From positions 1 through 48,225 of the forward strand of contig CAMJJG010000015.1 of assembly GCA_946406035.1 (NCBI GenBank): DNA of 48,225 nt, read 5' to 3'. Origin of the DNA: an uncultured Prevotellaceae bacterium (GTDB lineage: Bacteria > Bacteroidota > Bacteroidia > Bacteroidales > Muribaculaceae). The notes under the pieces were generated by a model. The model saw only the letters and a list, made by a program, of their open reading frames with translations. It was not told the origin of the DNA and ran no database searches. Positions 10,301 through 47,006 of this stretch are shown here, piece after piece. Every line of letters starts with the position of its first letter. Within the stretch, counting starts at the first letter, position 1. The position numbers and the translations under genes are program-made.

Positions 10301-12390
10301 TTGCTGTTGGCCGTGAGAACCACATTTCTCCGCACATAACAACCTTCTATTGCATCATACATCATCGGTAAACCGGCATTAGCGGCCCATTGCTGGGTGT
10401 TGGCATAGCCGATGACATAGACATTGCTGATGGGATCTGGCTCGATAAGGGTAACCGTCGCATCCACGGTACCGGTCGAGCTGTCGTAGGTCACCGTAAC
10501 GGTATAGGTGCCAGGGATGTGGACGTCAAATGTCTTGTTGTCGCCATCGGGATGCCAGGTGCCGTCGCTGCAATACACCTTGTAGGAGTACAGAGAGTCG
10601 GGGATGAGGTGAACTTGGGCCGCGGTCCAGGTATAGATGCCGTTATCCAGGGTCATCTGGGTCTCGGTGCCAGTGCTCCAGCCGTTGGGGAAGATATTGG
10701 TATCCTCGCCCGTGACATAATAGGCGATAGCGGCGTCGGCCTCAGCGTTAGGGCCGCTGACGGTGCTACCGCCACCATAGGTGAAATAGCTGGTGCCAGG
10801 CTGCAAGGTCAAATCGGCAGTCTGGGTCGAGCTGGAGCCGTTCTCGTTAAAGATGGCGTTGATGGTCGATGAATAGGAGCTGTAGGTCACCTGGTAGTAG
10901 GTGTAACCGTTAATCTCCTGTGAGGTTAGGCTCGACAGCGCGGTGCCGCCAGTGCTTCCCTCCCAAGCATCCGAAAGAGTGCCGTTGGAGTCCCAAGCAT
11001 ACAGGTACACGTTGCCGATAGGCTCGGTGCCATCGTAGCGCACGTAGATGTCGTAAGTATAGATCGGGTCGGCCTGAATCAGCGTTGCCACAGCATTCAC
11101 GTTGGTGCCGTCGAAGGTGAACACTACATTGTAGGTGCCGCTGGCATCTACGCTGAACGTGGCGTTATTGCCGCTGGGGTGCCAGGAGTTGTCACTGCCC
11201 AGAACCTTGTACTCATAGTTGGTGCCTGCTACCAAATGGACGTTGTTTGCGGTCCAGGTATAGGTGCCGTTGTTGTCAATCATTAGGTTCTCGGTGCCAG
11301 TGCTCCAGCCGTTGGGGAAGATAGTGGTGTTCTCGCCCACAACATAATAGTCAGCGGGAGCTGCGGGAGCTGTACCTACAACCTTGAATCTTGAGTGGGC
11401 GATGTCAAAGGTGATGGTAACTTGACCGGGATCCACCGTAATGTAATAGCTGTTAGCGCTCTTTTGAGTAGTGGTCCATGTTCCATCCACGTTCACTTCA
11501 GCATTGCCGCCAGTGGGGCCATAACGGTGGTTGGCGTTAAAGTCGTCCCAACTGTTGCTGCCACCGTCGGCGAAGGCGAAGTAGTAAGTGCCTGCTGTAG
11601 TGACATTATGGCTGTAAGTATAGACATCATTATTTTCATCATAGGTCATGGCGGTGGTAGGAGCGTAACTCCATCCACTAGGCACCAGACCACCGTCACC
11701 CGTGATATAATAGTTAGGGGTGACAGGAGTAACAGACTTGGGGGTAACGATGGCAGTGACTTCCTTGCTGATGACATTGAACGTGTAAGTAATATCATAC
11801 TCACCAGCCGAGGGAATATTGTAACTAACGTTGCCTCCAGCGCTGTTGCCATACCATGTGTTGCCATTATAGACCACTTTGAACTCTTTGTTGCCTGATG
11901 CCGTGTAATTGACAGTGCGGGTCAACTTGAGGGTACAGGCATCGCATGTGGTCATTCCATTATTGCTGTCATTGCCTGACCAGCTGGAACCCAGCGCTTG
12001 CGTGTCATTGCCTGCCACCACGACATTGAACGTGCCGTAAAGAGCCACATTATGGGAACTGTTGTTATAAACAAACACCAAACTATTGGTGCCGTTGGCA
12101 GTAAAACTGAGGTTGCTGCTCGGATACCAAGAACCGTTGTCAACAACCTTGTACTCGGTGGTGCCGCTCAACGTCACGTTTGGCTTTGCCAGGTAGTAAT
12201 CGTTGGAACTGCCATACCGCGTCATCTCGTTCGAGCCGTTGGCGTTAGCGGACCAGCTGGCGCCAAACAGTGACGTGTTGTCGCCTGCTACCACAATGGC
12301 CGCATGCAACTGCGGCACGGTCGCAGCCAGACATAACATCAAGGCCAATAGCCTCCATGTTGTTTTGGTTAGAAATTTTACCTTTTTCAT
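7321..12390 (-). CDS. Giant secreted multi-module alpha-glucan-binding-like protein
   Basis: This 1689-residue protein has a signal peptide (about 1-30, ending LHAA) and then a chain of beta-sandwich-like modules. Modules starting at about 33, 123, 226, 347 and 557 open with a V-A-G/Y-x-G-[DEN] motif and resemble the X25/SusE-type domains found in amylopullulanases. Those at 347 and 557 share the same FPNGWSTGTE core. A segment at about 445-540 (VYLYAWDSNG) and one in the C-terminal half (YYTNTTGWDSVYCYAW, later VIFDNG and LVFNNG) look like CBM26 starch-binding modules. No catalytic domain was recognised. The last 80 residues (YYNLMGVE, then SDGSRSSSKVLMP) resemble C-terminal tails seen on many secreted Bacteroidales proteins, including sorting domains. 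It stands alone, between its own promoter region and a terminator. A surface glucan-capturing role is inferred. Confidence 0.75.
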   Translation of the reverse strand: MKKVKFLTKTTWRLLALMLCLAATVPQLHAAIVVAGDNTSLFGASWSANANGSNEMTRYGSSNDYYLAKPNVTLSGTTEYKVVDNGSWYPSSNLSFTANGTNSLVFVYNNSSHNVALYGTFNVVVAGNDTQALGSSWSGNDSNNGMTTCDACTLKLTRTVNYTASGNKEFKVVYNGNTWYGNSAGGNVSYNIPSAGEYDITYTFNVISKEVTAIVTPKSVTPVTPNYYITGDGGLVPSGWSYAPTTAMTYDENNDVYTYSHNVTTAGTYYFAFADGGSNSWDDFNANHRYGPTGGNAEVNVDGTWTTTQKSANSYYITVDPGQVTITFDIAHSRFKVVGTAPAAPADYYVVGENTTIFPNGWSTGTENLMIDNNGTYTWTANNVHLVAGTNYEYKVLGSDNSWHPSGNNATFSVDASGTYNVVFTFDGTNVNAVATLIQADPIYTYDIYVRYDGTEPIGNVYLYAWDSNGTLSDAWEGSTGGTALSSLTSQEINGYTYYQVTYSSYSSTINAIFNENGSSSTQTADLTLQPGTSYFTYGGGSTVSGPNAEADAAIAYYVTGEDTNIFPNGWSTGTETQMTLDNGIYTWTAAQVHLIPDSLYSYKVYCSDGTWHPDGDNKTFDVHIPGTYTVTVTYDSSTGTVDATVTLIEPDPISNVYVIGYANTQQWAANAGLPMMYDAIEGCYVRRNVVLTANSNFAFATYLGEKSTDWETTNANRFSSNGESNWAITEDWIDTWMDYVPYSGENHNWYVDRQGAYDIFFNPSTRKVKIARSNHDMYIAYGVNWNWQDNSTMMTTVDGNVYQATITLNQGDYFLFAEQPTGENTWGADDNGYEINDFMVNYGQKLNQNTTNNYHFVGATGKYIVVVNLEKGTVTLRRTADGGTKTQTKIYLQKTSNVELDPAGGTYQGQTLEGKRGGIYAWNKLNLRNQNNQTYTVAVDGPTNYTYDGEVDIDGQGYVGNGYLKDINDTTTIDGKQWYAWSVSNSICEFYFIRQNNANDLKSQKIIRRSGEIWLTWIDEDATSNRQDNAQHCDSLMEVTRDYYQVSAGGVSDCETMLEDHYYVYYTNTTGWDSVYCYAWYEVGDNIVEFTRPYPGSKCTFVGYDEAGYEVWCYDFGLIEDYDMIPTNVIFDNGLGGGSEGEAGDNVRQQTGDLVFNNGACYDYLGLIYLGNSLSAIINSGVVYGPKYTVEDDLVGVYYDKNAVTEILVTDQSGNPLETLKVHGALYAKDMENYAAKSRMPEGTIDYVYDICAHTTSSTYPGGSQVQLKRTYYDQSNWVKIIISPNFDNANAKSNGDVNQSGNFDQMTYEDIENNILINDQHYLEQYVGRIIPGRTMSGNIVNNVNPQMHITNIAAPGNAYNYEKNVYIAPHFNDSVVFNYVHQEWAQGPYNGVHKTRPIMGTDQQGNQIVVDTEEDESTLYKMFYVAPKPQEVAYITWAVFYHPDPDNIVGTPECITEPNEPGAFYVPMNWNRKGQLWDGSDPNDPYGAWGTTYGPFSNGYKQYGAFQVNWSLFEDMEIPFNPNDPNAQQGREQEPWYRIFKPGQAYKILAIIRYAHGDKLDDVEYSPGVYKGDGYNEGNNPQNPDHVSNAPRRSNTTWLDMAFAPYDDLATSKFIVFPLRGSNEDSNGADLGNVTTVKEVNVARTPVSKRYYNLMGVESDKPFNGLNIIVTTYSDGSRSSSKVLMP

Positions 12391-12425
12391 CTGTAATTAA
12401 GTGATTAAAAATATGTTAATTCGTT

Positions 12426-12624: not shown

Positions 12625-12852
12625 CATTTTTATTATAAAAAGTGGGAGGGCACACCGGAACTGTATTGACACACTGTCATCAGATTGCGTTATGCTCGAG
12701 AAATCAAACCATTATATTATCGCAGTCCGACGGATGCCTATGTAAACTATTCGATTTCTTGCGAGCTATCCATGGAACGCTCGTAGAGTCAGCAGACAGT
12801 TGAGGCGTGGTGTACTCTCCCTAGGGTGGTTTTCATGGTATTAGATTATGGT

Positions 12853-34507: not shown

Positions 34508-34636
34508 GAGAAATCGGTTTAGATTTTTAGACCCGTGTTATGGAGGTAAAATATTGTGGATAAATGGATTGTGTTTTTGAAAAGTTTAGATTTTTCGTTG
34601 TAATGAGAGCGAGAAGCATTTTTATGTGTACCTTTG
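34508..34636 (+). promoter_or_regulatory. Twin-motif activator-type promoter of the amylase gene
   Basis: In order: GAGAAAT (34508-34514), TTAGATTTTT (34519-34528), a second TTAGATTTTT (34586-34595), and the -7 box TACCTTTG (34629-34636). The two ten-mers start exactly 67 bp apart, and the second starts 43 bp before the -7 box. No -33 TTTG is at the usual place, which fits dependence on an activator. The same arrangement precedes susC (38355-38483). The predicted transcription start near 34643 excludes a longer amylase frame beginning at 34626. Confidence 0.7.
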
Positions 34637-34673
34637 TAAAAAATCTGGAACATATTTTATGATTATAACCAAA

Positions 34674-36560
34674 ATGAAGCGGACTCTATCTCTTACTTTT
34701 GTATTGATGGTAACCTTGCTAGCTGGTGCGGCCGTATATGAGCCGTCGCTGGTGAGCGACAGCGAGGTGTGTGTGTTCTTTGAGGCCAATAGCACGGTGG
34801 GCGACGCACCCAAGATATGGGTGTGGGAAGGCAATACCGATGGCCGCGATTATGTGGGTACCAGCTGGCCTGGCCCGTCGATGACCTATATGGGCGACAC
34901 CCAGAGCGGCAACAGGATTTACAAGTGGACCTATAGCGGAACGCTGGCGATGCCCACTGGCCTGATTTTTACATGGAATAACCAGTCGGACCGCGTTGAC
35001 GGTTCGTTTACCAATCATGGCTACTATGTCATGGGGCAGTTGAGCAAGTTGATTGGCGCTGGCGAGAGCACCTATGTGCCCAACCAGAACGTCATTTACC
35101 AGCTTGACCTGTATAACTTCACCAGTCAGGGAACGCTTGCTGCAGCCCAGCAGCGGCTAGACTACCTCCAGGACCTGGGCATCGACATCATCTGGCTCAT
35201 GCCCATCCATCCCCGTGGTGTGTTGGGCCGCATCGGCACATTGGGTAGTCCATACGCCCCCCGCGACTATCATGCCGTGAACAGCGACTTTGGCACCATG
35301 GCCGACCTCAAGTCCTTTGTCACTGCGGCCCACCAACGCGGCATGCAGGTGTGGCTCGACTGGGTCGCCAACCACACCGCCAAGGACAACGTGTGGATTA
35401 CCGAGCATCGCGATTACTATAACTCGACCCTGACCAGTCCCAACGGCTATGGCGACGTGTATCAGCTCGACTACAGCAAGGAGGCAACCCAGCTGGCCAT
35501 GATCGAGGCGATGACTTACTGGATCGACCAGGCCGACATCGACGGCTATCGATGCGACTACATCAGCAGCACCACGATTCCTACCAGTTTCTGGACCCGC
35601 GCCATCAGTGCATTGAAGAATTACAAGCCAGGCAAGACCATCACCATCATGGGTGAGGGCGACATGGCCAATAGCGTGCAGCGCCTGCTGGGCTGCGGCT
35701 GGGATTATGACTATGCCTGGAACTTCCAGTCGTCGCTTGTCAACAACAAGAATAACCCCTCGGGGGTGCTCACGCAGTGCCGCAACCTGGTGAGCGACCT
35801 GCGCTTCATCGACCTGAGCCGCATGGTCTATCTCACCAACCATGACCAGAACTACAACAGCTCGATGAACTCGCAATATGGCAACAATGTCTATGCCTTT
35901 ACCGTATTGACGTTCACACTCTATGGCATGCCCATGCTCTATAATGGCCAGGAAACCGGCTACCTGCTGTCGCGCAAGCTGGACTACTTCAACCGTACGC
36001 CCATCAACTGGAACACCGTCGATAGCAAGATGCAGAGCACCGTCAAGGCCCTCACGGCCCTCAAGCACAGTTGTGACGCCCTGATTGACAACGCCGACCG
36101 CGCCAGCGAGGTTGAATTCCTGGCCACCGGTAACAACAATGTCATCGCCTATCAGCGCAGCCACAAGGCCCAGAAGTGCCTCGTGGTGCTCAACTTGGGC
36201 TCTAGCACTGTCAATACCATCGTCAGCGGGCTCGAGGCCGGCGGGTGGAAGCTCGCCATCGATGTGGAAAACATTTCGGCCGGTTTGACATCTACCCCCG
36301 TTAACTTGTATGCCACCCAGAGCTTCTCAATGCCAGCTAACGGCTTCAAGGTGTATGTGAAGGGCGAACCCGAGCCCGACTTCATCAGGGGCGACGTCAA
36401 CAATGACGGCGAGGTCAATATCGCCGACGTGTCGTCGTTGGTCGACGTCCTGCTGGGCGGCCAAGCCGATGCCGCGACCATGCAACGCGCCGACGTTAAT
36501 GCCAATGGCGAGGTCAATATCGCCGACGTGTCGTCGTTGATCGACATCCTGTTGTCGTAA
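34674..36560 (+). CDS. Secreted GH13 alpha-amylase with CBM26-like and dockerin-type modules
   Basis: This 628-residue protein starts at the ATG at 34674 (MKRTLSLTF), chosen because the predicted transcription start lies near 34643. After a signal peptide comes a CBM26-like starch-binding domain (about 30-120: VCVFFEANS, KIWVWEGN, LIFTWNNQ). The GH13 barrel has all four conserved regions: DWVANH (229-234), GYRCD with nucleophile Asp295, MGEGD with acid/base Glu328, and LTNHD with Asp391. A C-terminal beta domain and two dockerin-type repeats (GDVNNDGEVNIADV) end the protein. It should cleave alpha-1,4 bonds of starch outside the cell or at its surface, the role SusG plays in Bacteroides. The SusR-like regulator gene follows 57 bp downstream. 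Confidence 0.92.
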   Translation: MKRTLSLTFVLMVTLLAGAAVYEPSLVSDSEVCVFFEANSTVGDAPKIWVWEGNTDGRDYVGTSWPGPSMTYMGDTQSGNRIYKWTYSGTLAMPTGLIFTWNNQSDRVDGSFTNHGYYVMGQLSKLIGAGESTYVPNQNVIYQLDLYNFTSQGTLAAAQQRLDYLQDLGIDIIWLMPIHPRGVLGRIGTLGSPYAPRDYHAVNSDFGTMADLKSFVTAAHQRGMQVWLDWVANHTAKDNVWITEHRDYYNSTLTSPNGYGDVYQLDYSKEATQLAMIEAMTYWIDQADIDGYRCDYISSTTIPTSFWTRAISALKNYKPGKTITIMGEGDMANSVQRLLGCGWDYDYAWNFQSSLVNNKNNPSGVLTQCRNLVSDLRFIDLSRMVYLTNHDQNYNSSMNSQYGNNVYAFTVLTFTLYGMPMLYNGQETGYLLSRKLDYFNRTPINWNTVDSKMQSTVKALTALKHSCDALIDNADRASEVEFLATGNNNVIAYQRSHKAQKCLVVLNLGSSTVNTIVSGLEAGGWKLAIDVENISAGLTSTPVNLYATQSFSMPANGFKVYVKGEPEPDFIRGDVNNDGEVNIADVSSLVDVLLGGQADAATMQRADVNANGEVNIADVSSLIDILLS

Positions 36561-36617
36561 ATCCTATAGTTCTGTACTAATAACGATGATTGCTGTGCCA
36601 AAATGAAGAATTAGGGA

Positions 36618-38273
36618 ATGAATAGCATTATAAAAAAGATGTTGCTACTGTCGGCGCTGATGTGGCTAACGGCAACCAGTAGTGCTATGGGCAGTTCGCG
36701 CGAATCTGATTTCTCGCGGCTGGATAGCCTGATAGCCGCTCAACCCCAAATCGTCGCCGCCAAGGAAGCCCATCTGGCCCAGATGAAGGCCACCATGGAC
36801 AACACGGGCACAGCAATCACCCGTTATCACGCGATGAAACGGCTGTATGAGGAATATTCAGCCTATCAATATGACTCGGCCTACGCTTGCGTGAGCCAAT
36901 GCCTGAGACTCGCCCAGTCGATGGGCGATAGCCGACTGATGAACGATAGCCGCCTGAACATGGCGCATATTCTATCTACTGCCTGCCTCATGGACGAGAC
37001 TCGCAAGACCCTGGAGCAGGTGGACACCACCACCCTGGATGCCGACCAGCTCATCAAGTACTACCGCACCCAGATTGACCTGCTCATCTACCAGGCCGAG
37101 TATATGCAGGGCACACAGTATGCTGGCGCCTATGTTCAGCGCCAGATGGACCTGCGGCGCCGCTTGACGTCTATTGCCCCTCCCGACGGCAATGTGTATT
37201 ACCTGATCACCGTAGCCGAGGGCTATGCCGATGCCGGCAACTATCAGCAGGCCATCCTGTTGCTGGACAGCCTGGCCAAAGGCCATAAGAGCGGAGACCG
37301 CATGTACTCGGTCATCGTCAGCACCATGGCCTATTACTACTCGCAGCTGGGCGACAGAGAGCGACAGATGCAGTGTCTGATCCTCAGTGCCGAGAGTGAC
37401 CTCGAGGGCTGCATCCGCGAGAACACCTCGCTCAGGACGATTGCCGACCGCCTGTTCGATGAGGGCGATATCGACCGTGCCTACCGTTATATGCGCGTCG
37501 CCGTGGACGATGCCAACTTCTATGGCACGCGCCTGCGCAACATACAGGCCTCGCTCATCGTCCCCAAGATTCTCACAGCCTACCAGACCAAGCAGGAGCA
37601 GAGCCATCGCAACATGATGTGGCTGCTCGTGACCATATCGGTCATCGCCCTGCTGCTGGTGGGAGGCGTCATTGCCATCTACCAGCTGCTGATGCGCTAC
37701 CGCCGCCTCAACGAGCAGAAGCGGGCCATCAACGAGCAGTTGCGGCAGGTCAATGACCAACTGGGCGACACCGTCGAGCAGTTGCACGAGAGCAACGCCC
37801 TGCTGCGCGAGCGCGAGAAACTCAAGGAGGAGTACATCGCACGATTCCTGACCCTCTCGAGCCGCTTTATTGACCGTGGCGAGGAGCAGCGCAAGGCACT
37901 TTATCGCCTGTACCGTGACCGCAAGACCGAGGACCTGGCTCGGGAGTTAAAGAGCACCCACTCGGGCAGCGAGAACGCCCAGTTGTTCTATGAGAACTTT
38001 GACAACGCTTTTCTCAACATATACCCCAACTTTGTCGATGAGGTGAACAAGCTCCTGCAGGAAGACGGGAAAATCGAGGTCAAGCAGGGCAAGCGCCTGA
38101 CCACCGAGTCGCGCGTGCTGGCGCTCATTCGCATCGGCATCACCGATAACCAGAACATTGCCAACATCCTGCGTGCCAGTCTCACCACCATCTACACCTA
38201 TCGCTCCAAGCTCAAAGCCCGCGCCATCGACAAGAATGACTTTGAGGACCGTGTCAAGTCGCTTGATTGCTAG
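36618..38273 (+). CDS. SusR-like membrane-bound transcriptional regulator (DUF6377 type)
   Basis: This 551-residue protein has a signal-like hydrophobic start (about 6-25). A helical TPR-type sensor region (about 30-320) lies presumably in the periplasm, then one membrane helix (about 334-358) and a coiled coil (about 360-405). The C-terminal domain begins EYIARFLTLSSRFIDRGEE and ends with a LuxR-like helix-turn-helix: GITDNQNIANILRASLTTIY at about 510-530. As I recall it, SusR of B. thetaiotaomicron, the maltose-responsive activator of the sus genes, has this same layout. The gene lies between amylase and susC, whose promoters share an unusual twin motif, so it is the natural candidate for binding that motif. 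No promoter of its own is seen, so it is probably co-transcribed with the amylase gene. Confidence 0.85.
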   Translation: MNSIIKKMLLLSALMWLTATSSAMGSSRESDFSRLDSLIAAQPQIVAAKEAHLAQMKATMDNTGTAITRYHAMKRLYEEYSAYQYDSAYACVSQCLRLAQSMGDSRLMNDSRLNMAHILSTACLMDETRKTLEQVDTTTLDADQLIKYYRTQIDLLIYQAEYMQGTQYAGAYVQRQMDLRRRLTSIAPPDGNVYYLITVAEGYADAGNYQQAILLLDSLAKGHKSGDRMYSVIVSTMAYYYSQLGDRERQMQCLILSAESDLEGCIRENTSLRTIADRLFDEGDIDRAYRYMRVAVDDANFYGTRLRNIQASLIVPKILTAYQTKQEQSHRNMMWLLVTISVIALLLVGGVIAIYQLLMRYRRLNEQKRAINEQLRQVNDQLGDTVEQLHESNALLREREKLKEEYIARFLTLSSRFIDRGEEQRKALYRLYRDRKTEDLARELKSTHSGSENAQLFYENFDNAFLNIYPNFVDEVNKLLQEDGKIEVKQGKRLTTESRVLALIRIGITDNQNIANILRASLTTIYTYRSKLKARAIDKNDFEDRVKSLDC

Positions 38274-38354
38274 CGGCCGTTGCTACACCCCTCGGAACCC
38301 CGCCGGGAGGCTCTCCTGATTGCTCAACACATGGTTTGCAGGTAACTTTTCTCT

Positions 38355-38483
38355 GAGAAATTGATTAGATTTTTGAGGGATGGCATCTGTTTCAATATGT
38401 TGATTTTCAGATGGGTAATTTATTTAGCGGGTTAGATTTTTATTTGAAGGTGTTGGGCTGTATTGGTCTTCACTTTAACTTTG
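38355..38483 (+). promoter_or_regulatory. Twin-motif activator-type promoter of susC
   Basis: GAGAAAT (38355-38361), TTAGATTTTT (38365-38374), a second TTAGATTTTT (38432-38441), then the -7 box TAACTTTG (38476-38483). The ten-mers start 67 bp apart, as at the amylase promoter, and the second starts 44 bp before the -7 box. GTTG (38452-38455) lies 20 nt before the -7 box as a weak -33. The predicted start near 38490 leaves a leader of about 65 nt. Confidence 0.7.
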
Positions 38484-38555: not shown

Positions 38556-41519
38556 ATGAGCATGAAGAAATGTAAAACAGGAATGCTGCAACGCATGCTG
38601 CTACTGTGCGTTGCGCTGATGTTTACCCTGGGCATTTCGGCGCAGACGCTGACCCTTACCGGCCACATTGTGGATGAGACGGGTGAGGATCTGATCGGCG
38701 CCAGCGTTGCCGTCAAGGGTACATCCAACGGAAGTGTGACCGACTTTGAAGGTCGATTCACTATCGAGAATGCACCAAGTAACGGAAGCCTGGTCGTCTC
38801 TTACATCGGTTTTGAGACCCAGGAAGTGGCCATCAATGGTCAGACCCATTTTGAGATTACGCTCGTCGAGGAGCGCTCGCAACTCAACGAAGTGGTCGTT
38901 GTGGGTTACGGCTCACTGGCCAAGAAGGAAATCTCGAGTTCGGTGGTACAGATTGACAAGAAGCAGTTCAACCAGGGTGTTGCCAGCGACCCGCTCGCAC
39001 TAGTTGCCGGCAAGGTGGCTGGCCTTAACGTGAGCACCAGTGCTGCTGCCAACCCCAACTCGATGACCGATTTCCAGATTCGAGGCGCTGGTTCACTCAC
39101 TGCATCCAACGGTCCGCTCATCGTCATCGACGGCATCGCCGGCGGTGACCTGCGCAATATCGCGACTCAGGATGTCGAGAGCATTACAGTGCTGAAGGAT
39201 GCCGGCTCGGCTGCCATCTATGGTACCCGCGGCGCCAATGGCGTCATTCTGGTGACCACCAAGAAGGGTGCCGGAGCTCCTGGAGTGACCACGGTAACCT
39301 ACGACAGCTATATCGCCACTAACTTTGCCAAGCCCAAGCCCGACATCCTGACGACCGACGAGTTCCGTCGTTCACGCCGCGGCCAGGACTATGGCGGTGA
39401 CACCAACTGGTGGGACGAGATCACCCGCCCCATGAGCTACAACTTGAACCAGTATCTGTCGATCGACAGTTCGACCAAGAATGGCTACTTTGGGGCTTCG
39501 GTCAACTACAAGCGCGGCAATGGTCTGGACATCGTCTCGGGCCGCGAAGAGTATGGAGCACGCTTCGTCGGTGAGCAGCGTGTGCTGGACAATTTCCTGC
39601 AGTTCAACGCATCGCTCTCGGGCCGCAAGGTGCATGAGAAGTGGGGCAACGACGGCCTGTTTGACACGGCCCTGACAATGAACCCCACCATTCCCGTGTT
39701 TAATGAGGACGGTACTTATTACCAGCCCAACAGTCCCACCGACATCCACAATCCGGTCAATGACCTGAAGAACAACGTGAGCAACGGTGACCGCATCTAT
39801 CTGTTGGGCAATGGTGACGTCAAGCTCAACCTGATCCAGACCGACAAGCACTACCTGAACACATCGCTCAGCTATGCCTTGCAATACAACGACTTGAAGT
39901 CCAACTTCTACACTCCCAGCACCTCGAGCGAGAGTTACTGGAACGGATATGCCGGCCGCGCCAACATCAATTACCAGAAGTGGTGGACCAACCGCGTGGA
40001 GTGGCTGGGCAACTACACGCTCACCCTCGACGACCACCAGCTGAAAGCCGTTGTGGGCTACTCGTGGGAGCGTACCCGCTGGGAGCAGAGCGGCAACGAG
40101 AACATGGGCTTTGTGTATGACAGCATGGGCTATCACGGCATTGGCAACGGAACCTATCTGCATGATGGCAAGGCCAACTTGTGGGCCGGCTCATCAGAGT
40201 CCACCCTGATTGGCTTCTTTGGCCGCTTGAACTACAACTATCGCGACATGCTGTTTGCAGCGGTGTCGATGCGCCATGAGGGCAGCACCAAGTTCGGCAC
40301 CAACAAGAAGTGGGGTAACTTCCCGTCGGCCTCGCTGGCATGGGAAATCATCCGCACCCCGTTTGCCGAGGGCCTGTCCCAGACGTTCCAGAGTCTCAAG
40401 CCCCGCATCTCCTATGGTGTGACGGGCCGCAGCGACTTCAACGCTTACCAGTCACTATCGACCTACAGTAGCTATGGTGCCTATTATATCGATGGCGAGT
40501 GGGTCAACGGCTATGCACCGTCGGTTAACGCCAATCCCGACCTGGCCTGGGAGAAATCCACTGCCTTTAACGTGGGTGTGGATTTTGTGGCCCTGGATAG
40601 CCGCCTGCGCGGTAGCGTCGAGTATTATGACCGCCGCAGTCAGGACCTGCTCTACAACTATACCGCACCGCAGCCCCCGTTCATCTACAACTCCATCCTG
40701 GTCAATGTGGGCACGACCAAGAATACCGGTGTAGAAGTCGTGCTTGACTATGACGTGCTCACCAACAGCGCCTTCAAGTGGACCACTGGCATCAACTGGA
40801 GTACCGGCACGACCAAACTGACCAAGCTCTCGAGTGACGTCTATCAGATGAGTTATCTTGACCTGTATCGCAAGCCCGGTGTGGGCACGAGCGAGTATTT
40901 CTTCCGTGTCGAGGAGGGAGGCACCATCGGTCAGTATTACGGCTTTGAGCACGCCGGCATCGATGAGAACGGCCTGTTCCTGGTCTATGACAATGAGGGC
41001 AATGCCGTGTCCGCCGCTCAGGCCGATCCAGCCTATAAGCGCAACATCGGCAATGGAGCACCCAAGCATTTCCTCTCGTGGACCAACTCGTTCACCTGGG
41101 GTAACTGGGACTTGAGTATGCTGATGCGTGGCGCCTTTGGCTACAAGATCTTCAACATGCGCCGTTATGGCATGGGTCTGAAGGGCTGCGGCACCGACAA
41201 CGTGTTGGCAAGTGCCTATACCGACTATGCCGACGTGAGCGCCGGTGGCAGCATCATCTCGAGCTATTTCCTCGAGAAAGGCGACTACTTCAAGCTCGAC
41301 AACGTGACCCTGGGCTACACCTTCATGCCCAAGAAGCGCAATCTGCTAGAGAGCCTTCGTGTCTATCTGTCGGCCAAGAACCTGTTCACCCTCACGGGCT
41401 ACAAGGGCAACGATCCCTCGATCGTCACCTCGACCGGCATCACCCCTGGCATTGACTCCAACAGTGCCTATCCTCAGGCTTACCAGTTTACACTGGGTGT
41501 GACCGTTCGTTTCCATTAA
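38556..41519 (+). CDS. susC: SusC-family TonB-dependent outer-membrane receptor
   Basis: This 987-residue protein forms the outer-membrane pore that, with the SusD lid, imports oligosaccharides using TonB energy. The signal peptide ends near residue 30 (GISAQ). A carboxypeptidase-regulatory-like domain (about 33-115, GHIVDETGEDLIGASVAVKG) leads to NEVVVVGYG, typical of the SusC group. The plug domain contains PLIVIDGIAGGDLRNIA and IYGTRGANGVILVTTK. The remainder is a beta-barrel ending TLGVTVRFH with a terminal aromatic/His residue. SusD follows 15 bp downstream and a starch-binding lipoprotein after it, so the substrate is most likely starch or maltodextrin. The promoter shares the twin motif with the amylase gene. 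Confidence 0.95.
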   Translation: MSMKKCKTGMLQRMLLLCVALMFTLGISAQTLTLTGHIVDETGEDLIGASVAVKGTSNGSVTDFEGRFTIENAPSNGSLVVSYIGFETQEVAINGQTHFEITLVEERSQLNEVVVVGYGSLAKKEISSSVVQIDKKQFNQGVASDPLALVAGKVAGLNVSTSAAANPNSMTDFQIRGAGSLTASNGPLIVIDGIAGGDLRNIATQDVESITVLKDAGSAAIYGTRGANGVILVTTKKGAGAPGVTTVTYDSYIATNFAKPKPDILTTDEFRRSRRGQDYGGDTNWWDEITRPMSYNLNQYLSIDSSTKNGYFGASVNYKRGNGLDIVSGREEYGARFVGEQRVLDNFLQFNASLSGRKVHEKWGNDGLFDTALTMNPTIPVFNEDGTYYQPNSPTDIHNPVNDLKNNVSNGDRIYLLGNGDVKLNLIQTDKHYLNTSLSYALQYNDLKSNFYTPSTSSESYWNGYAGRANINYQKWWTNRVEWLGNYTLTLDDHQLKAVVGYSWERTRWEQSGNENMGFVYDSMGYHGIGNGTYLHDGKANLWAGSSESTLIGFFGRLNYNYRDMLFAAVSMRHEGSTKFGTNKKWGNFPSASLAWEIIRTPFAEGLSQTFQSLKPRISYGVTGRSDFNAYQSLSTYSSYGAYYIDGEWVNGYAPSVNANPDLAWEKSTAFNVGVDFVALDSRLRGSVEYYDRRSQDLLYNYTAPQPPFIYNSILVNVGTTKNTGVEVVLDYDVLTNSAFKWTTGINWSTGTTKLTKLSSDVYQMSYLDLYRKPGVGTSEYFFRVEEGGTIGQYYGFEHAGIDENGLFLVYDNEGNAVSAAQADPAYKRNIGNGAPKHFLSWTNSFTWGNWDLSMLMRGAFGYKIFNMRRYGMGLKGCGTDNVLASAYTDYADVSAGGSIISSYFLEKGDYFKLDNVTLGYTFMPKKRNLLESLRVYLSAKNLFTLTGYKGNDPSIVTSTGITPGIDSNSAYPQAYQFTLGVTVRFH

Positions 41520-41534
41520 TCGATTAATAGACCA

Positions 41535-43364
41535 ATGACTATGAATAAGATCAAATATTTCATGATTGCGATAGCACTGGGTGTCACTGCACTATCGTCA
41601 TGCACCGATCTCGACGAGAAGGTGAATGACCGCATCGATGCTACTGTGTATTACCAGAATGAAGCCAGCGTGAAGGGCGCCGTGGCCGCCATCTACAATC
41701 AGACGTCATCGACGCTCGCTGGCGAGAATTTCTTCCACCTGAGCGAGTACCCTGCCGACCAGCTCACCTGGCGCGTGTGGAACGGTGGCCAGTGGGGATG
41801 GGACGAGGCCATGAAGACCGTGCTCTCGTGGCATAACTGGAACAGCGAGTCCACCATTATCCAGAATGCCTGGTCAAGTGCCTGGACAGCAGTGGGACTG
41901 GCTAACCTGTTGCTCAACGACCTTGAGGGCCTGGACGCTGCAAGCCTGGGCATGACTCAGGATAAGCTCAACCAGTATGTTGCCGAGGTGCGTACCATAC
42001 GCGCCTGGAATTATTACTGCCTGTTTGAACTGTGGGGTGGCGCTCTGCCCTTGAACATCAGTGCCGGCAGTGAGGTTCCTGGCACCGCCGATCCCGACTG
42101 GGATACCTCTTGCAAGAAGATTTACCAGTTTATTGCCGATGAGCTCGATCAGACTGTTGACCAGCTTGCCCGGGAGGACGGGTCACGCAGCACCGTCAAT
42201 CGCGCCAACCAGGCGATGAATCGCCTGCTCAAGGCTCGCTTGCTGCTCAATGCCGAGGTCTTCATCAACGAGGCTCACTATGACGAGTGCGAGGCGCTCT
42301 CCAAGCAGATCATCAACGGCGAATACGGCCGCTACTCGCTTGCCGAGAATTACCGTGACCTCTACAGTATCGACAACGTGAAGTGCCCCGAGGTGATCTT
42401 TGCTCTCGCTGCCGAGGACGGCATGGGCGCCGCCAATGCCATCAGCAATGTTCGCACTATGGTGGGCATGTGGTATGGCTATGCCGACTACTTTGGGCAG
42501 TCCTATGACGGCATCGGCGCCTGGAACTGTGTGTGCCTCGTGCCCAGCTATGACAACTCGGGCACCGTTCTGCCAACTGGTGGCAGTGAGGGCGCCAAGT
42601 GCTTCCTCGATGCACCTTATAACGACAAGCTGGGAGCCCCCTATGAGCGCTTTGACGATCGCGACATACGCAAGCAGAACTATGTATATAATGTGACAAC
42701 CCGCACTCACGGACCCGGTATGTTCCTCAAGGGCCTGATGCGTGCCAACTTTGGAACGGGCGACGTGCTCAAGGCCGATGCCGACCGCGATGGTCAGGAT
42801 CTGGTGTATGTCGATCAGGTGGGTACCTTCCTCAACCAGGGACGCAACCTCGAGCCGGTGATGAGCCCGCGTTGGGGTGAGACCAATTCGGGTGTCCGTC
42901 TGGTAAAGTATCCGCTCTATCCCACCGACGATGCCGGCGGCTTCAAGTCGATTGATGACGTGCAGTTCCGTCTTGCCGAGGCCTACTACAACGTGGCCGA
43001 GTGCGAGATGCGCAAGGGCAACAGCGGTGAGGCTAGGAACTATGTCGATGCTGTGCGTCAGCGCTATTTCACTGCCGCCAATCGTGCGTCGGCTCTCTCG
43101 GTTCCCGGTCCCGGCTTCTCGAGCTTTGACATGGACTGGATGCTCAGCGAGTGGGGCAAGGAGTATCTGGGCGAGGGCAACCGCCGTCGCACCGACCTGC
43201 GCCGTTTCAACAAGTTCACTCAGGGCACCTGGTGGTTCTGGGGCCGCGCTACCGAGGCCGGTGTTGATTTGCCTGCTCAGCGTAGCACCAAGTATGAGTG
43301 GTACCCGCTGCCTCAGTCGGCACTGTCGGTCAACCCGGGCTTGATCCAGAATCCCAATTATTAA
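41535..43364 (+). CDS. susD: SusD-family nutrient-binding outer-membrane lipoprotein
   Basis: This 609-residue lipoprotein has a signal peptide ending at the lipobox ALSSC (Cys23). The SusD/RagB features are clear: an N-terminal helical region with FHLSEYPADQ, then the EVRTIRAWNYYCLFELWGGA helix, where the RAxxY motif typical of SusD proteins sits. The C-terminal RagB-type domain has RLAEAYYNVAECEMRKGN and ends YEWYPLPQSALSVNPGLIQNPNY. SusD caps the SusC barrel and binds starch at the cell surface. An ATG at 41541 is an equally good start. The gene is coupled to susC (15 bp gap) and followed 27 bp later by the SusE/F-like gene. Confidence 0.95.
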   Translation: MTMNKIKYFMIAIALGVTALSSCTDLDEKVNDRIDATVYYQNEASVKGAVAAIYNQTSSTLAGENFFHLSEYPADQLTWRVWNGGQWGWDEAMKTVLSWHNWNSESTIIQNAWSSAWTAVGLANLLLNDLEGLDAASLGMTQDKLNQYVAEVRTIRAWNYYCLFELWGGALPLNISAGSEVPGTADPDWDTSCKKIYQFIADELDQTVDQLAREDGSRSTVNRANQAMNRLLKARLLLNAEVFINEAHYDECEALSKQIINGEYGRYSLAENYRDLYSIDNVKCPEVIFALAAEDGMGAANAISNVRTMVGMWYGYADYFGQSYDGIGAWNCVCLVPSYDNSGTVLPTGGSEGAKCFLDAPYNDKLGAPYERFDDRDIRKQNYVYNVTTRTHGPGMFLKGLMRANFGTGDVLKADADRDGQDLVYVDQVGTFLNQGRNLEPVMSPRWGETNSGVRLVKYPLYPTDDAGGFKSIDDVQFRLAEAYYNVAECEMRKGNSGEARNYVDAVRQRYFTAANRASALSVPGPGFSSFDMDWMLSEWGKEYLGEGNRRRTDLRRFNKFTQGTWWFWGRATEAGVDLPAQRSTKYEWYPLPQSALSVNPGLIQNPNY

Positions 43365-43391: not shown

Positions 43392-44810
43392 ATGAAAACA
43401 AGGAATATATATAGTCTGATAGTGGTGATGCTGGCTGCACTGACGGTGACAACCGGTTGCTCCAGCGACGAGGACATCATCTTTGACCACGAGCGTCAGC
43501 AATTTGAGACGCGCGCCGACCGCATCCTGCTTGAGTTCATTGCCCCCTATGGCACGGCTGTTGACGAGGAAATCTACATCATGGGTGCGTTCAATGGCGA
43601 CAGTGCGTCGATGGGCAAGGAGGAGTGGAAACTCATGAAGGCTCCTGGCAGCGACATCAAGTGGGGCATCTATCTCGATCCTGCCACGTTTGTTAACGGT
43701 AAGACGCTGGGCGACGGTTTCCGCTTCTACAGTGCCACCCAGGGCACAGAGTTCACCGTGAAGGGCGAAATAGCAAACCACAATGACAATCCCGGACTGG
43801 GCACATTCACCAATGTGTGGGGTGAACGCTGGGAGAGCTATTACTGGAGTGGAGAGGGTCCCGAGATCGAGCACGATGGCTATGTGGTCTATGTGCTTGA
43901 CGAGACGGGATGGGCCAACCTGAACCTGTACATGTGGGGTGACGTCAACGATCTGAACGGTGGTTGGCCGGGTATGACACCCACGGGCAAGCAGTCGATA
44001 GGCGGTACCCAGTACACTTACTTTGACATGGGTGCGGCCAACACTGGCTTGAACGAGAATCTGATTTTCAATAACGGTGAAGGCAGCCAGCTGGCCGACT
44101 TTGCCTACACCATCGACCACGACGTGTATCTGCGTGTCACAGCCAGTGGCGTCGAGGAATTGGGCGAGCCGACAGTAGTCGCTCACGACGGGTTTGCCGT
44201 GTTTGTGGTCAACAAGACGGGATGGAATGCGTTGAACCTGTACATGTGGGGCGACGTGAACGACCTGAATGGCGGCTGGCCAGGTATGGTGCCCACGGGC
44301 GAGCAGACCATCAAGGGTGTGACCTATACCTACTTCGACATGGGTGCTGCCAACACGGGCCTGAATGAGAATCTGATCTTTAACAACGGTGAGGGCTCTC
44401 AGCTGGCCGACTTTGCCTATACCATCGACCACGACGTCTATCTTGAAGTGACAGCCAGTGGAGTGACCGAGATTGATCCCGCGACCTATACTGGTGGCGG
44501 TGACACGCCCGAGCCCACACCTGGTGAAACCCACTACATCTATATTGACGACCAGACGGGTTGGGATGCCATCACTCTGTATGCCTGGGGCGACAAGGAA
44601 TTCTTTGGCGGTTGGCCAGGCGTTGCACCCACGGGGAGCAAGACTGTTGACGGCGTGAACTACACCTACTGGGAGTTTACCAGCAATGGCGAGACCGAGC
44701 ACCTCATCTTCAACAACAACGGTGGTGGGTCACAAACGCCCGACTATGATGTTGTGCTTGATCGTGACTACTACCTCACCGTGACCGCTAGCGGTGTGAC
44801 AGCAAGATGA
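43392..44810 (+). CDS. SusE/SusF-like surface lipoprotein with three CBM26-type starch-binding modules
   Basis: This 472-residue lipoprotein (TTGC, Cys23) replaces SusE/SusF in this locus. An N-terminal domain (about 40-155, RILLEFIAPYGTAVDEEIYIMGAFNGD) resembles SusE-type domains. Three CBM26-like modules follow at about 164-253, 267-358 and 381-469. Each has TGWxxxxLYxWGD, GGWPGM/V and LIFNN, the aromatic and polar positions that bind alpha-glucan in this family. Modules 1 and 2 are almost identical in protein and very similar in DNA (43881-44150 against 44190-44465), a recent duplication. Module 3 is more diverged and is joined by a Gly/Pro-rich linker. It should hold starch at the cell surface. 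Two hairpins after the stop close the susCDE unit. Confidence 0.88.
   Translation: MKTRNIYSLIVVMLAALTVTTGCSSDEDIIFDHERQQFETRADRILLEFIAPYGTAVDEEIYIMGAFNGDSASMGKEEWKLMKAPGSDIKWGIYLDPATFVNGKTLGDGFRFYSATQGTEFTVKGEIANHNDNPGLGTFTNVWGERWESYYWSGEGPEIEHDGYVVYVLDETGWANLNLYMWGDVNDLNGGWPGMTPTGKQSIGGTQYTYFDMGAANTGLNENLIFNNGEGSQLADFAYTIDHDVYLRVTASGVEELGEPTVVAHDGFAVFVVNKTGWNALNLYMWGDVNDLNGGWPGMVPTGEQTIKGVTYTYFDMGAANTGLNENLIFNNGEGSQLADFAYTIDHDVYLEVTASGVTEIDPATYTGGGDTPEPTPGETHYIYIDDQTGWDAITLYAWGDKEFFGGWPGVAPTGSKTVDGVNYTYWEFTSNGETEHLIFNNNGGGSQTPDYDVVLDRDYYLTVTASGVTAR
43881..44465 (+). repeat. Tandem duplicated CBM26-type coding modules
   Basis: The segments 43881-44150 and 44190-44465 encode near-identical modules. 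Shared runs include LNLYMWGDVNDLNGGWPGM and the AANTGLNENLIFNNGEGSQ segment. The DNA differs mostly at third bases. Confidence 0.85.
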
Positions 44811-45014: not shown

Positions 45015-47006
45015 ATGGTAAAGAAATTGATACTCTGTGTGTTGATGTGCATGTCGCTGGGTGTGATAGCGAGTGCCCGAGACATAAAGCTGTCGAGCCC
45101 CGACGGGTCGCTCACGTTAATCGCCGGTGTTGACGGCGGCCAGGCCTGGTATGAGGTGAAGCGTGGCAGCGAGGCTGTCATCAACCGTTCACAACTGGGA
45201 TTTGTGCTCAGCGATGGCGACCTCAAGGGTAACTTCAAGATGGGCAAGGTGACCCGCACGTCGCTCGACGAGTTGTGGAGCCAGCCCTGGGGCGAGGATG
45301 CCGTGGTGCACAATCATTACAACGAGATGCGGGTGCGCCTGCACGAGAGGGGCGGCATGAAGCGCTACATCGACGTGGTGTTCAGGGCGTTTGACGACGG
45401 TGTGGCCCTTCGCTACGAGTTCCCGCGCCAGCAGGGCCTTCAGGACTTTGTCATTGTTGACGAGGTAACGCAGTTTGCCCTGCCCAGCGATGCTTATGCC
45501 TGGTCGATTCCCGCGTTGACCCCCTATTATGAGGGTATCTATACCCGTGAGCCGGTGAGCAAGAAGGGCAATATGTCGGCTCCCGTCGCCCTTGAGGTCA
45601 ATGACTCGCTCTACATGGCCGTCATGGAAGCCAACCTCACCGATTACTCGACGATGAACCTTGCCCACGAGGGCACGACGCTCAAGACCGATCTGGTGCC
45701 CTGGCAGAACGGCGATCGGGTCAGGGTGGGGGACACCCGTGTGTCGCCCTGGCGTGTCGTGATCATCGGTCGCAAGGCTGCCGACATCCTGTTGTCGCGC
45801 ATGGCCCTGAACCTGAATGACCCCTGCCAGATCGAGGATACCTCATGGCTGAAGCCGACAAAATATGTGGGCATCTGGTGGGCGCTGCAGAAACAGAAGT
45901 GGACCTGGTCCCAAGGCGATCGCCACGGTGCCACCACCGAGCACACCAAGCGCTACATCGACTTTGCCGCGCGCCATGGCCTGGGAGGCGTGCTGGTCGA
46001 GGGGTGGAACTATGGCTGGGACACCGACTGGACCCGTCATGGCGACGGATTCAGCTTCACCCGTGCTTATCCCGACTATGACCTCGAGGGCCTGTGCCAA
46101 TATGCTGCCGAGCGTGGCGTGCGCATCATCGCCCACAACGAGACCGGCGGAGCCGCCCAGAATTATGAAGACCAGCTCGAGGATGCCTATCGCCTGTATG
46201 AGCGTCTGGGCATCAACACCGTCAAGACAGGTTATGTCAACAGCCACTTCTACAACGGCGAGTTGCAGCACTCGCAGTGGGGCGTGCGCCACTTCCGCAA
46301 GGTGATAGAGACCGCCGCGCGCCACCACTTGATGATTGTCAACCACGAGGGTGCCATGCCCAGCGGCTTGCAGCGCACGTGGCCCAACCTCATCGCTACC
46401 GAGAGCATGCGCGGCCAGGAGTACAACGCCTTTGACCGCGGGGGCGGCAATCCGCCCTATCACGAGTGCATCCTGCCGTTCACGCGTGGCCTGGGCGGGG
46501 CAATGGACTTCACTCCAGGCATCTTTGAGTACCGCAACGACTCGGTGCCCGGCACCCGTCCCCAAAACACGCTGGCTCACCAGCTGGCCGAGTATGTGGT
46601 CATTTACAGCCCCGGCCACATGGCCGCCGACTTGATAGAGAACTATGAGCACCAGCCCGCCTTCAAGTTCATCGAGGACGTGCCCACCAACTGGGAGCGG
46701 ACCGTCGTTCCTCATGCCTCGATGGGCGAGTATGTGACCTATGCGCGCCAGGAGCGCGGTACCCGCAACTGGTACATCGGCAGCGTGACCGATGCCCACG
46801 AGCGCGACCTGACGTTGTCACTGGATTTCCTGGGTGACGGCGCCTATCATGCCATCATCTATGAGGACGGTCCCGATGCCGATTACCGTGACAATCCCTA
46901 TGCGATGACCATTCGCCGCCTGGATGTGGACAAGACCAGCGTCATCCGCCTGCACCTGGCTCCCGGCGGGGGCTGCGCCATCCAGATTCTCGCCAATCCC
47001 GAGTAG
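45015..47006 (+). CDS. susB: GH97 alpha-glucosidase (SusB-like, inverting type)
   Basis: This 663-residue exported enzyme has a signal peptide (about 1-21, ending IASA). It has the three GH97 parts: an N-terminal beta-sandwich (to about 280), a barrel beginning KYVGIWWALQKQKW, and a C-terminal beta domain. Glu376 (HNETGG), Glu445 (VNHEGAMPSG) and Glu469 (RGQEYNA) are spaced 69 and 24 residues apart. These are the spacings of the catalytic Glu439, Glu508 and Glu532 of SusB, as I recall them, so it belongs to the inverting branch and not the retaining alpha-galactosidase branch. It should release glucose from imported maltooligosaccharides in the periplasm. In B. thetaiotaomicron susB lies before susC; here it closes the locus behind a terminator and its own promoter box. 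Confidence 0.93.
   Translation: MVKKLILCVLMCMSLGVIASARDIKLSSPDGSLTLIAGVDGGQAWYEVKRGSEAVINRSQLGFVLSDGDLKGNFKMGKVTRTSLDELWSQPWGEDAVVHNHYNEMRVRLHERGGMKRYIDVVFRAFDDGVALRYEFPRQQGLQDFVIVDEVTQFALPSDAYAWSIPALTPYYEGIYTREPVSKKGNMSAPVALEVNDSLYMAVMEANLTDYSTMNLAHEGTTLKTDLVPWQNGDRVRVGDTRVSPWRVVIIGRKAADILLSRMALNLNDPCQIEDTSWLKPTKYVGIWWALQKQKWTWSQGDRHGATTEHTKRYIDFAARHGLGGVLVEGWNYGWDTDWTRHGDGFSFTRAYPDYDLEGLCQYAAERGVRIIAHNETGGAAQNYEDQLEDAYRLYERLGINTVKTGYVNSHFYNGELQHSQWGVRHFRKVIETAARHHLMIVNHEGAMPSGLQRTWPNLIATESMRGQEYNAFDRGGGNPPYHECILPFTRGLGGAMDFTPGIFEYRNDSVPGTRPQNTLAHQLAEYVVIYSPGHMAADLIENYEHQPAFKFIEDVPTNWERTVVPHASMGEYVTYARQERGTRNWYIGSVTDAHERDLTLSLDFLGDGAYHAIIYEDGPDADYRDNPYAMTIRRLDVDKTSVIRLHLAPGGGCAIQILANPE

Follow-up and report, generated by a model that had tools for sequence, protein, structure and literature searches.

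SusR-family regulators govern the founding example of polysaccharide utilisation loci (PULs). Among other carbohydrate regulators of Bacteroides, the Crp-like protein BT4338 also goes by the name Cur, and in Proteobacteria, at promoters where an activator is assisted by IHF, the bend usually lies between the upstream activator and a sigma-54 promoter. For SusR-like operators of Bacteroides, Ravcheev et al. 2013 (PMC3878776) predicted, without experiment, direct repeats 67 or 77 bp apart (centre to centre), separated by a long non-conserved spacer and occupied by a dimer on two distant boxes, while a 2019 paper (PMC6874557) called the mechanism of SusR undefined. Here we describe two operators of this type in a 48,225-nucleotide stretch of DNA (contig CAMJJG010000015.1, hereafter the window) from an uncultured Prevotellaceae bacterium, one ahead of an alpha-amylase gene and one ahead of susC, with a gene for a SusR-like regulator in the same locus. 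Between the two boxes of such operators we find a palindromic central element, and its conservation in sequence comparisons of SusR-type operators is solid.

The locus agrees with the 2013 description in that its repeats stand upstream of SusR-linked polysaccharide genes, and the two spacing classes present in the window's genus are the same 67 and 77 bp. A twin-box operator for the SusR-like gene, as proposed in a first-pass annotation of this DNA, was therefore already known in outline. The spacer departs from the 2013 description. Relative to the compared text of that paper (PMC3878776), the operators described here have a conserved palindrome near-fixed in register, an additional 65-bp class and a correlation between box sequence and recognition helix. 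None of these features, nor the constancy of the register across classes, turned up in the open-access literature searched. In that literature we found no published account of the central element and no paper on SusR and IHF together; the one paper that joins IHF to PULs, Bacteroides and SusC concerns fructooligosaccharides.

In the window, the box TTAGATTTTT occurs four times (34519, 34586, 38365 and 38432) against a shuffle expectation of 0.02. The copies form two plus-strand pairs exactly 67 bp apart, with box 1 at 34519..34528 and box 2 at 34586..34595 in the amylase operator, and box 1 at 38365..38374 and box 2 at 38432..38441 in the susC operator. The pair TTAGATTTTT-N57-TTAGATTTTT was found twice, and in none of the shuffles, with three mismatches permitted, and no further pair turned up in the window at that tolerance. 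The first-pass annotation was thus accurate about the pairs, about their being the only two in the window and about the GAGAAAT that precedes both first boxes, which stands 1 bp closer at the susC site. A GAAA upstream element lies at 34510..34513 (+) in the amylase operator and at 38357..38360 (+) in the susC operator; it is conserved at G-8 (32/33), A-7 (30/33), A-6 (28/33) and A-5 (28/33) in amylase-side sites and at A-6 (12/16), A-5 (13/16) and A-4 (13/16) in downstream-side sites. A TTTGA element right after box 2 is kept in both promoter sets; it is present in the susC operator (38443..38447, +), and the window's amylase site has no clear copy. In the organism's own assembly (2.23 Mb, 74.7% complete) single boxes are common, with 13 copies versus 11 for the reversed control. 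Pairs with N55-59 occur only at the two window places (control 0), which bears out that exact pairs are confined to this locus, but a third, degenerate pair, TTAGATTTAT / CTAGATTTTC, also 67 bp apart, lies outside the window.

The spacing is conserved in relatives. Our sample comprised 101 genomes of the window's genus, own genome included, of which 20 carry an exact TTAGATTTTT pair when 52-62 spacer bases are permitted; all 23 of the 23 pairs so found have N57 (reversed control 0). A sequence-only model built from these 23 sites gave 91 places in 46/101 genomes at an expectation value (E) <= 0.01. Such model searches are biased toward their 23 training sites, and the tests of the centre described below use box-only or blind searches. 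The model hits of >=30 bits number 52. A listed SusR gene stands no more than 8 kb from 40 of them, in surroundings that make up about 0.8% of the DNA (assuming 2.8 Mb per genome); the contigs of the remaining 12 have no listed SusR gene. Hits of >=25 bits and SusR matches above 350 bits also co-occur by genome (37 with both, 0 with a hit only, 35 with SusR only, 29 with neither; Fisher p 8e-8). Two positions predominate among the hits, as in the window: some 2.1 kb upstream of susR, and the first 130 bp or so downstream of it.

We also fetched 80 congeneric SusR loci, graded by their score against the SusR equivalog model NF058541 (cut-off 480 bits): among the matches listed, 20 of 43 over the cut-off, 50 of 50 at 449-480 bits, the band of the window's regulator, and 10 of 29 at 436-449 bits. 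Around these 80 genes, a box-only check of pairs with <=3 mismatches at every gap from 20 to 110 placed 51/135 pairs at gap 57, and the next commonest gap had 4. Four permuted boxes gave gap 57 in 7/78 pairs (6/30, 1/28, 0/12 and 0/8 by box), the box with 6/30 sharing its T-run with the real one. Within the window's regulator band, 33 of the 50 loci have the upstream site and 15 the downstream site on the susR strand (both in 14, neither in 16). A relative of the amylase gene is present in 35 of these loci, namely all 33 with an upstream site and two without, one of which has a 66-bp pair there; the 15 loci that lack the amylase relative have an upstream site in 0/15. A susC-relative start was found in 14 of the 15 loci with a downstream site.

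Conservation in relatives and linkage to starch genes, both put forward for checking by the first-pass annotation, were therefore found, and the contrary outcomes of random unlinked hits or of no conservation did not occur. Proximity to SusR genes (40/52), co-occurrence by genome, the amylase link (33/35 versus 0/15) and the box-helix correlation described below support the proposal of a direct-repeat operator belonging to the SusR-like gene, and suggest that the twin boxes are very probably docking sites of this starch-sensing regulator. A de novo search of 30 SusR loci from an order-wide sample gave no dominant pair (3 loci at most).

Related operators with other spacings accompany other SusR proteins. 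At loci of the SusR paralogues with high scores in the window's genus (L097-L116), a blind search gives a CCACTTTTTA pair exactly 77 bp apart in 15/20, divergent to the over-cut-off susR paralogues and in the same orientation to the promoter as the 67-bp class. Over-cut-off SusR matches are carried by 43/101 congeneric genomes, among the matches listed. Across the phylum we sampled 80 named loci, the best 80 of at least 594 relatives, from which near relatives of the window genome may be absent. A blind search of the 24 Flavobacterium loci in this sample found a ACTACTTTTTT-type pair 65 bp apart in 24/24, and in 23 of them (exception L234) the pair has <=1 mismatch per box.

Between the boxes lies the palindrome YAAnnnnYTGnnnnnCARnnnnTTR, with its dyad 40-41 bp after the start of box 1. 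In the window it corresponds to TAAAATATTGTGGATAAATGGATTG in the amylase operator (34547..34571, +, dyad 34559) and to CAATATGTTGATTTTCAGATGGGTA in the susC operator (38393..38417, +, dyad 38405). The two window sites alone do not reveal it: they share 2/18 positions ahead of the centre, 11/25 within it and 6/14 behind it. Searched with <=3 mismatches, the whole palindrome is found three times in the window against 0.23 expected, at the susC site and two others, the amylase site being absent. The amylase-side sites (33) and the downstream-side sites (16) form two non-orthologous sets, and the spacer columns conserved across them (box 1 = 1-10) are A30 A31, T37 G38, C/T44 A45 R46 and T52 R53. 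These core columns, picked on the 23 exact sites, average 0.94 bits on the amylase side and 0.93 on the susC side, as compared with 0.22 and 0.25 in the remaining spacer columns, and the best symmetry centre in a scan from 24 to 55.5 is 41.0 (0.449 vs a mean of 0.282, sd 0.038). The first-pass annotation had observed that the two window spacers differ in sequence, which is correct, and had concluded that spacing and motif are what is kept; the spacers are not free to differ, however, since their centre is conserved across many sites. It is hardly credible that the operator is as published in 2013, with two SusR boxes, a non-conserved spacer and a centre conserved merely by common descent. That reading has the published description on its side (PMC3878776, in the text compared), and many sites are indeed orthologous; yet the rest of the same spacers has diverged, while the register of the centre is maintained in promoters that are not orthologous, in paralogues and in another class of the phylum.

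The register is nearly invariant across spacing classes. In the 77-bp class, a centre matrix trained on 67-bp sites scores best in the same register in 15/15 spacers (40 offsets each; z 14.6 vs shuffles), so that the 10 bp by which this class is longer, close to one helical turn, falls between the centre and box 2. In the 65-bp class of Flavobacterium the centre stands at register 26 in 23/23 sites, with the dyad at 40.0, and in other taxa with 65-67 bp spacing it was found in 16/19, at register 26 (65 and 66 bp) or 27 (67 bp). L272, with a spacing of 77 bp, and a pair in L288 that is 76 bp apart are not part of this test. As the boxes differ among classes, the centre is not a box copy; the idea that it is a degenerate third TTAGATTTTT placed midway was dropped, the 77-bp class having other boxes and the same centre.

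The boxes vary together with the protein. Recognition helices with YTYRS go with TTWGATTTTT (38:1) and those with YNYR go with CNACTTTTTN (68:3; p 8e-25, descent not corrected), and outside the window's genus the same comparison gives 2:1 vs 1:53 (p 0.006). The C-terminal helix-turn-helix (HTH) of the window's regulator reads ...TTIYTYRSKLK. Among 183 distinct loci with a readable helix, 72 have no box pair with <=2 mismatches (22/75 congeneric, 50/108 other), and proteins with other helix variants gave no pair in 15/16 cases; among the loci outside the genus, the duplicates L177 = L211 and L194 = L226 were counted once each. L259, which has one stop in frame, was left out of the protein alignment and its site was kept. 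The box-helix correlation offers a route to predicting SusR regulons in other species.

The box shifts from TTAGATTTTT to CCACTTTTTA or CTACTTTTTT in step with the recognition helix, and the centre does not follow; the boxes are therefore most likely read by SusR and the centre by another factor. The same observation makes it improbable that SusR itself occupies the centre through weaker half-sites, with two dimers or a tetramer covering the whole region, an arrangement for which one may cite a faint half-site likeness (an A five bases before TTA, both ahead of box 1 and in the centre) and the long helix of the SusR structure model, which could perhaps dimerise. That some regulator other than the SusR-like protein reads the boxes we consider very improbable. 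Binding of the boxes by SusR is a prediction, and since genomes of many relatives encode several SusR paralogues, one of the others could be the partner; the own genome, however, has two SusR-family matches, one of them listed at 456.5 bits, and just one full-length match, and co-occurrence, gene adjacency and the box-helix correlation favour the SusR-like protein.

Activator-dependent promoters of Bacteroidota carry a TAnnTTTG -7 element and no TTTG at -33, and the operators described here precede promoters of this form. The -7 element of the amylase promoter, TACCTTTG (34629..34636, +), starts 43 bp after the start of box 2, and that of the susC promoter, TAACTTTG (38476..38483, +), 44 bp after it. 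Both elements, and the lack of a good -33 box at both promoters, had been recognised in the first-pass annotation, and they recur in relatives: the distance from the start of box 2 to that of TAnnTTTG is 43 or 44 bp in 64/64 genus sites of the 67- and 77-bp classes, and TTTG at the usual -33 spacing is present in just 2/49 such promoters of the genus, which makes the missing -33 box a feature of the class. In Flavobacterium, TA[GA]nTTTA lies 42-43 bp after the start of box 2 in 23/23 sites, and in other taxa TAnnTTTG lies at 42-44 in 14/19. Box 2 is placed where an activator could touch RNA polymerase.

With respect to the centre, each palindrome half reads WATCAANNNNTTR, the IHF consensus, the two halves sharing the dyad base. 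In the amylase operator the consensus has 2 mismatches forward and 3 in reverse, and in the susC operator it is exact on the minus strand (38405-38393). Allowing <=2 mismatches in at least one orientation, it is found in 46/49 sites of the 67-bp class, 15/15 of the 77-bp class, 23/23 of Flavobacterium (12/23 exact in the forward half) and 12/14 of other taxa with 65-66 bp spacing, against 0.2-1.4 in shuffles; for the genus as a whole the count is 61/64 vs 1.8. As in the IHF-assisted promoters of Proteobacteria, a putative bend site that resembles the consensus lies beside activator sites; unlike those promoters, the centre is palindromic, stands between two boxes of one activator and belongs to a Bacteroidota-type promoter. 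The IHF site spans 35 bp, with two kinks 9 bp apart and a 160-degree bend (PMC8421141), and a site of that length centred at 41 would end short of both boxes, leaving them just outside the footprint. The own genome contains four DNABII stretches; of the three scanned, two score nearer IHF than HU and one nearer HU, and the best solved relative of one of these proteins is an IHF. Taken together, the comparisons tip slightly toward an IHF/HU-type (DNABII) bending protein as the ligand of the centre.

Several observations touch the same consensus. Exact copies are no rarity in the window (2 observed vs 1.04 expected): one at 12702-12714 is at chance level and lies near a minus-strand open reading frame (ORF) at 7321-12390, just before the start of which stands a palindrome with 3 mismatches (12394-12418). 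A metagenome-assembled genome (MAG) of Candidatus Azobacteroides (L226 = L194) has an operator of the TTWGATTTTT 67-bp class with the exact IHF consensus in its centre, and a Dysgonomonadaceae MAG (L227) one of the same class with a one-mismatch consensus. In B. cutis (L290) a 67-bp pair with 2 mismatches stands right after susR, its centre one mismatch from the IHF consensus; another box type fits equally well at 66 bp. On contig 42 of the own genome (L209 1501-2970), two DNABII genes stand in tandem, the second with a long C-terminal extension and a hydrophobic stretch.

A different dimeric protein, such as a global sugar regulator that co-activates with SusR without bending, could also bind the centre. 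We think this unlikely, though it deserves to be taken seriously: a symmetric 25-bp palindrome is of the size bound by dimeric factors, and BT4338, the carbohydrate master regulator, sets a precedent by binding palindromes at many Bacteroides sugar promoters (PMC6989115). An architectural role agrees better with the near-fixed register of the centre, which is maintained while box spacings vary by 1-2 or 10 bp. BT4338 itself, with its TATGTTnTAnAACATA palindrome, was rejected on a by-eye comparison with the published consensus. Its 22-bp palindrome likewise occurs at sugar-utilisation promoters, but the consensus and half-site spacing differ, wwwTATGTTnTAnAACATAwww being TG-N8-CA and the centre TG-N5-CA.

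We moderately favour a three-part activator operator, with SusR on the boxes, a DNABII-type bend at the centre and activation near -7. The boxes, their spacing, the palindrome and its register, the promoter geometry, the link to SusR and the box-helix correlation are all observed by comparing sequences; from these we infer SusR binding, DNABII binding, bending, activation and the inducer. In this model, the two direct-repeat boxes would be read by the C-terminal HTH of the membrane-anchored SusR-like regulator, while an IHF/HU-type protein on the central palindrome would bend the spacer. The bend would fold the boxes together so that one SusR dimer, tied to the inner membrane, could hold both, and the half bound to box 2 would be placed near the -7 element, compensating for the missing -33 contact. 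Periplasmic maltooligosaccharide would act as the inducer, switching on the amylase gene, the susCD-CBM26-GH97 genes and a distant secreted protein. We extend this scheme to Bacteroidota at large only tentatively, with slightly more doubt than confidence: there, a sharp turn made by an IHF/HU-type protein on a palindrome 40-41 bp after box 1 would allow one membrane-anchored dimer to bridge half-sites 65, 66, 67 or 77 bp apart, the 10-bp jump amounting to one added turn on the box-2 arm only. If true, this wider scheme would describe a wired-in link between nucleoid architecture and membrane glycan sensing. A conserved middle element would explain the wide separation of the boxes, and its presence opens the mechanism to tests with point and phase-shift mutants.

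A number of observations weigh against this interpretation. At the thresholds used, the susR strand carries no pair in 5/20 loci of the 77-bp class and in 16/50 loci of the window's regulator band, although among those 16 L120 has a 66-bp pair in the usual place and L145 a pair on the opposite strand. The counts overstate independence, because many sites are orthologous. Some of the 16 centres assigned in other taxa score low, down to -4.6 bits, and of the other-taxa sites with 67-bp spacing 0/5 come within 2 mismatches of the IHF consensus. The IHF match was made post hoc, and shuffled consensuses equal it at p 0.011 (Flavobacterium), 0.019 (77-bp class) and 0.09 (67-bp class), so the identification is suggestive and not settled. 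The candidate DNABII proteins stay far below the thresholds of the IHF models (best scores 61.7 of 115 and 47.6 of 111 bits), and a spacing of 67 bp does not correspond to an integral number of helical turns (10.5 bp each). IHF sites are described as usually asymmetric (PMC8421141), unlike the palindromic centre, and an HU of Porphyromonas showed no clear preference among DNA forms in the work reported (PMC3969353). Binding, bending and activation in this organism are predictions from compared genomes.

The gene for the regulator (36618..38273, +) lies between the two promoters, as the first-pass annotation had it, and matches both NF058541 and PF19904 (DUF6377; 256.4 bits). At 456.6 bits the protein falls below the NF058541 equivalog cut-off of 480 and is therefore filed as SusR-like, not as SusR itself. 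It shares its family and its starch PUL setting with SusR of B. thetaiotaomicron (BT3705) and differs from it in remaining under that cut-off. The DUF6377 domain, a tetratricopeptide repeat (TPR)-like part and the C-terminal HTH are all present, and a membrane helix is predicted. The predicted structure has a TPR-like N-terminal part, a 129-residue helix (305-433), which in the model likely holds the membrane segment, and the HTH (496-535) at the C-terminus. The top solved-structure matches of the full model are TPR proteins; the C-terminal part alone shows a weak LuxR/NarL-type HTH likeness (E above 0.3), and Pfam GerE reaches 14.2 bits, under its cut-off.

The genes of the locus are all on the plus strand, in the order amylase, SusR-like regulator, susC, susD, CBM26 and GH97, with operator sites preceding the amylase gene and susC. 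The amylase is a GH13 alpha-amylase (34659..36560; alternative start codons at 34659 or 34674; Pfam Alpha-amylase 121.9 bits) with a dockerin-like C-terminus (Dockerin_1 38.8 bits). This type I dockerin match is curious, as a cellulosome would be unexpected in such a bacterium. Downstream of the regulator follow susC, encoding a TonB-dependent transporter (38556..41519; TIGR04056 619.4 bits), susD (41535..43364; PF07980 148.8 bits), a gene for a CBM26 starch-binding protein in the SusE-like position (43392..44810; CBM26 72.7 bits) and one for a GH97 glycosidase (45015..47006; PF10566 320.3 bits).

The operator search also suggests one further member of a starch regulon, a protein hitherto uncharacterised. 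The third, degenerate site of the own genome (62363-62439 on contig 2, with box starts at 62363 and 62430) precedes an ORF of 1,298 aa (L083:2528-6421, where L083 is contig 2, 60000-68000). Outside the amylase-susR-susC layout, 14 loci with a hit were fetched. A frame of 1,295-1,298 aa begins 160-253 nt after the hit start in 13 of them, and the one remaining locus is at the edge of its contig. Scans of three of these proteins matched DUF4886 each time (26-32 bits, one just under the cut-off); they also gave a secretion tail in every case and CBM26 in two, with both of these match types below cut-off. These features suggest that the 1,298-aa protein is probably secreted, perhaps starch-binding, and make it a candidate orphan member of the SusR-type starch regulon. 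In two of the 13 loci (L093 and L094), another SusR paralogue lies 5-5.5 kb away.

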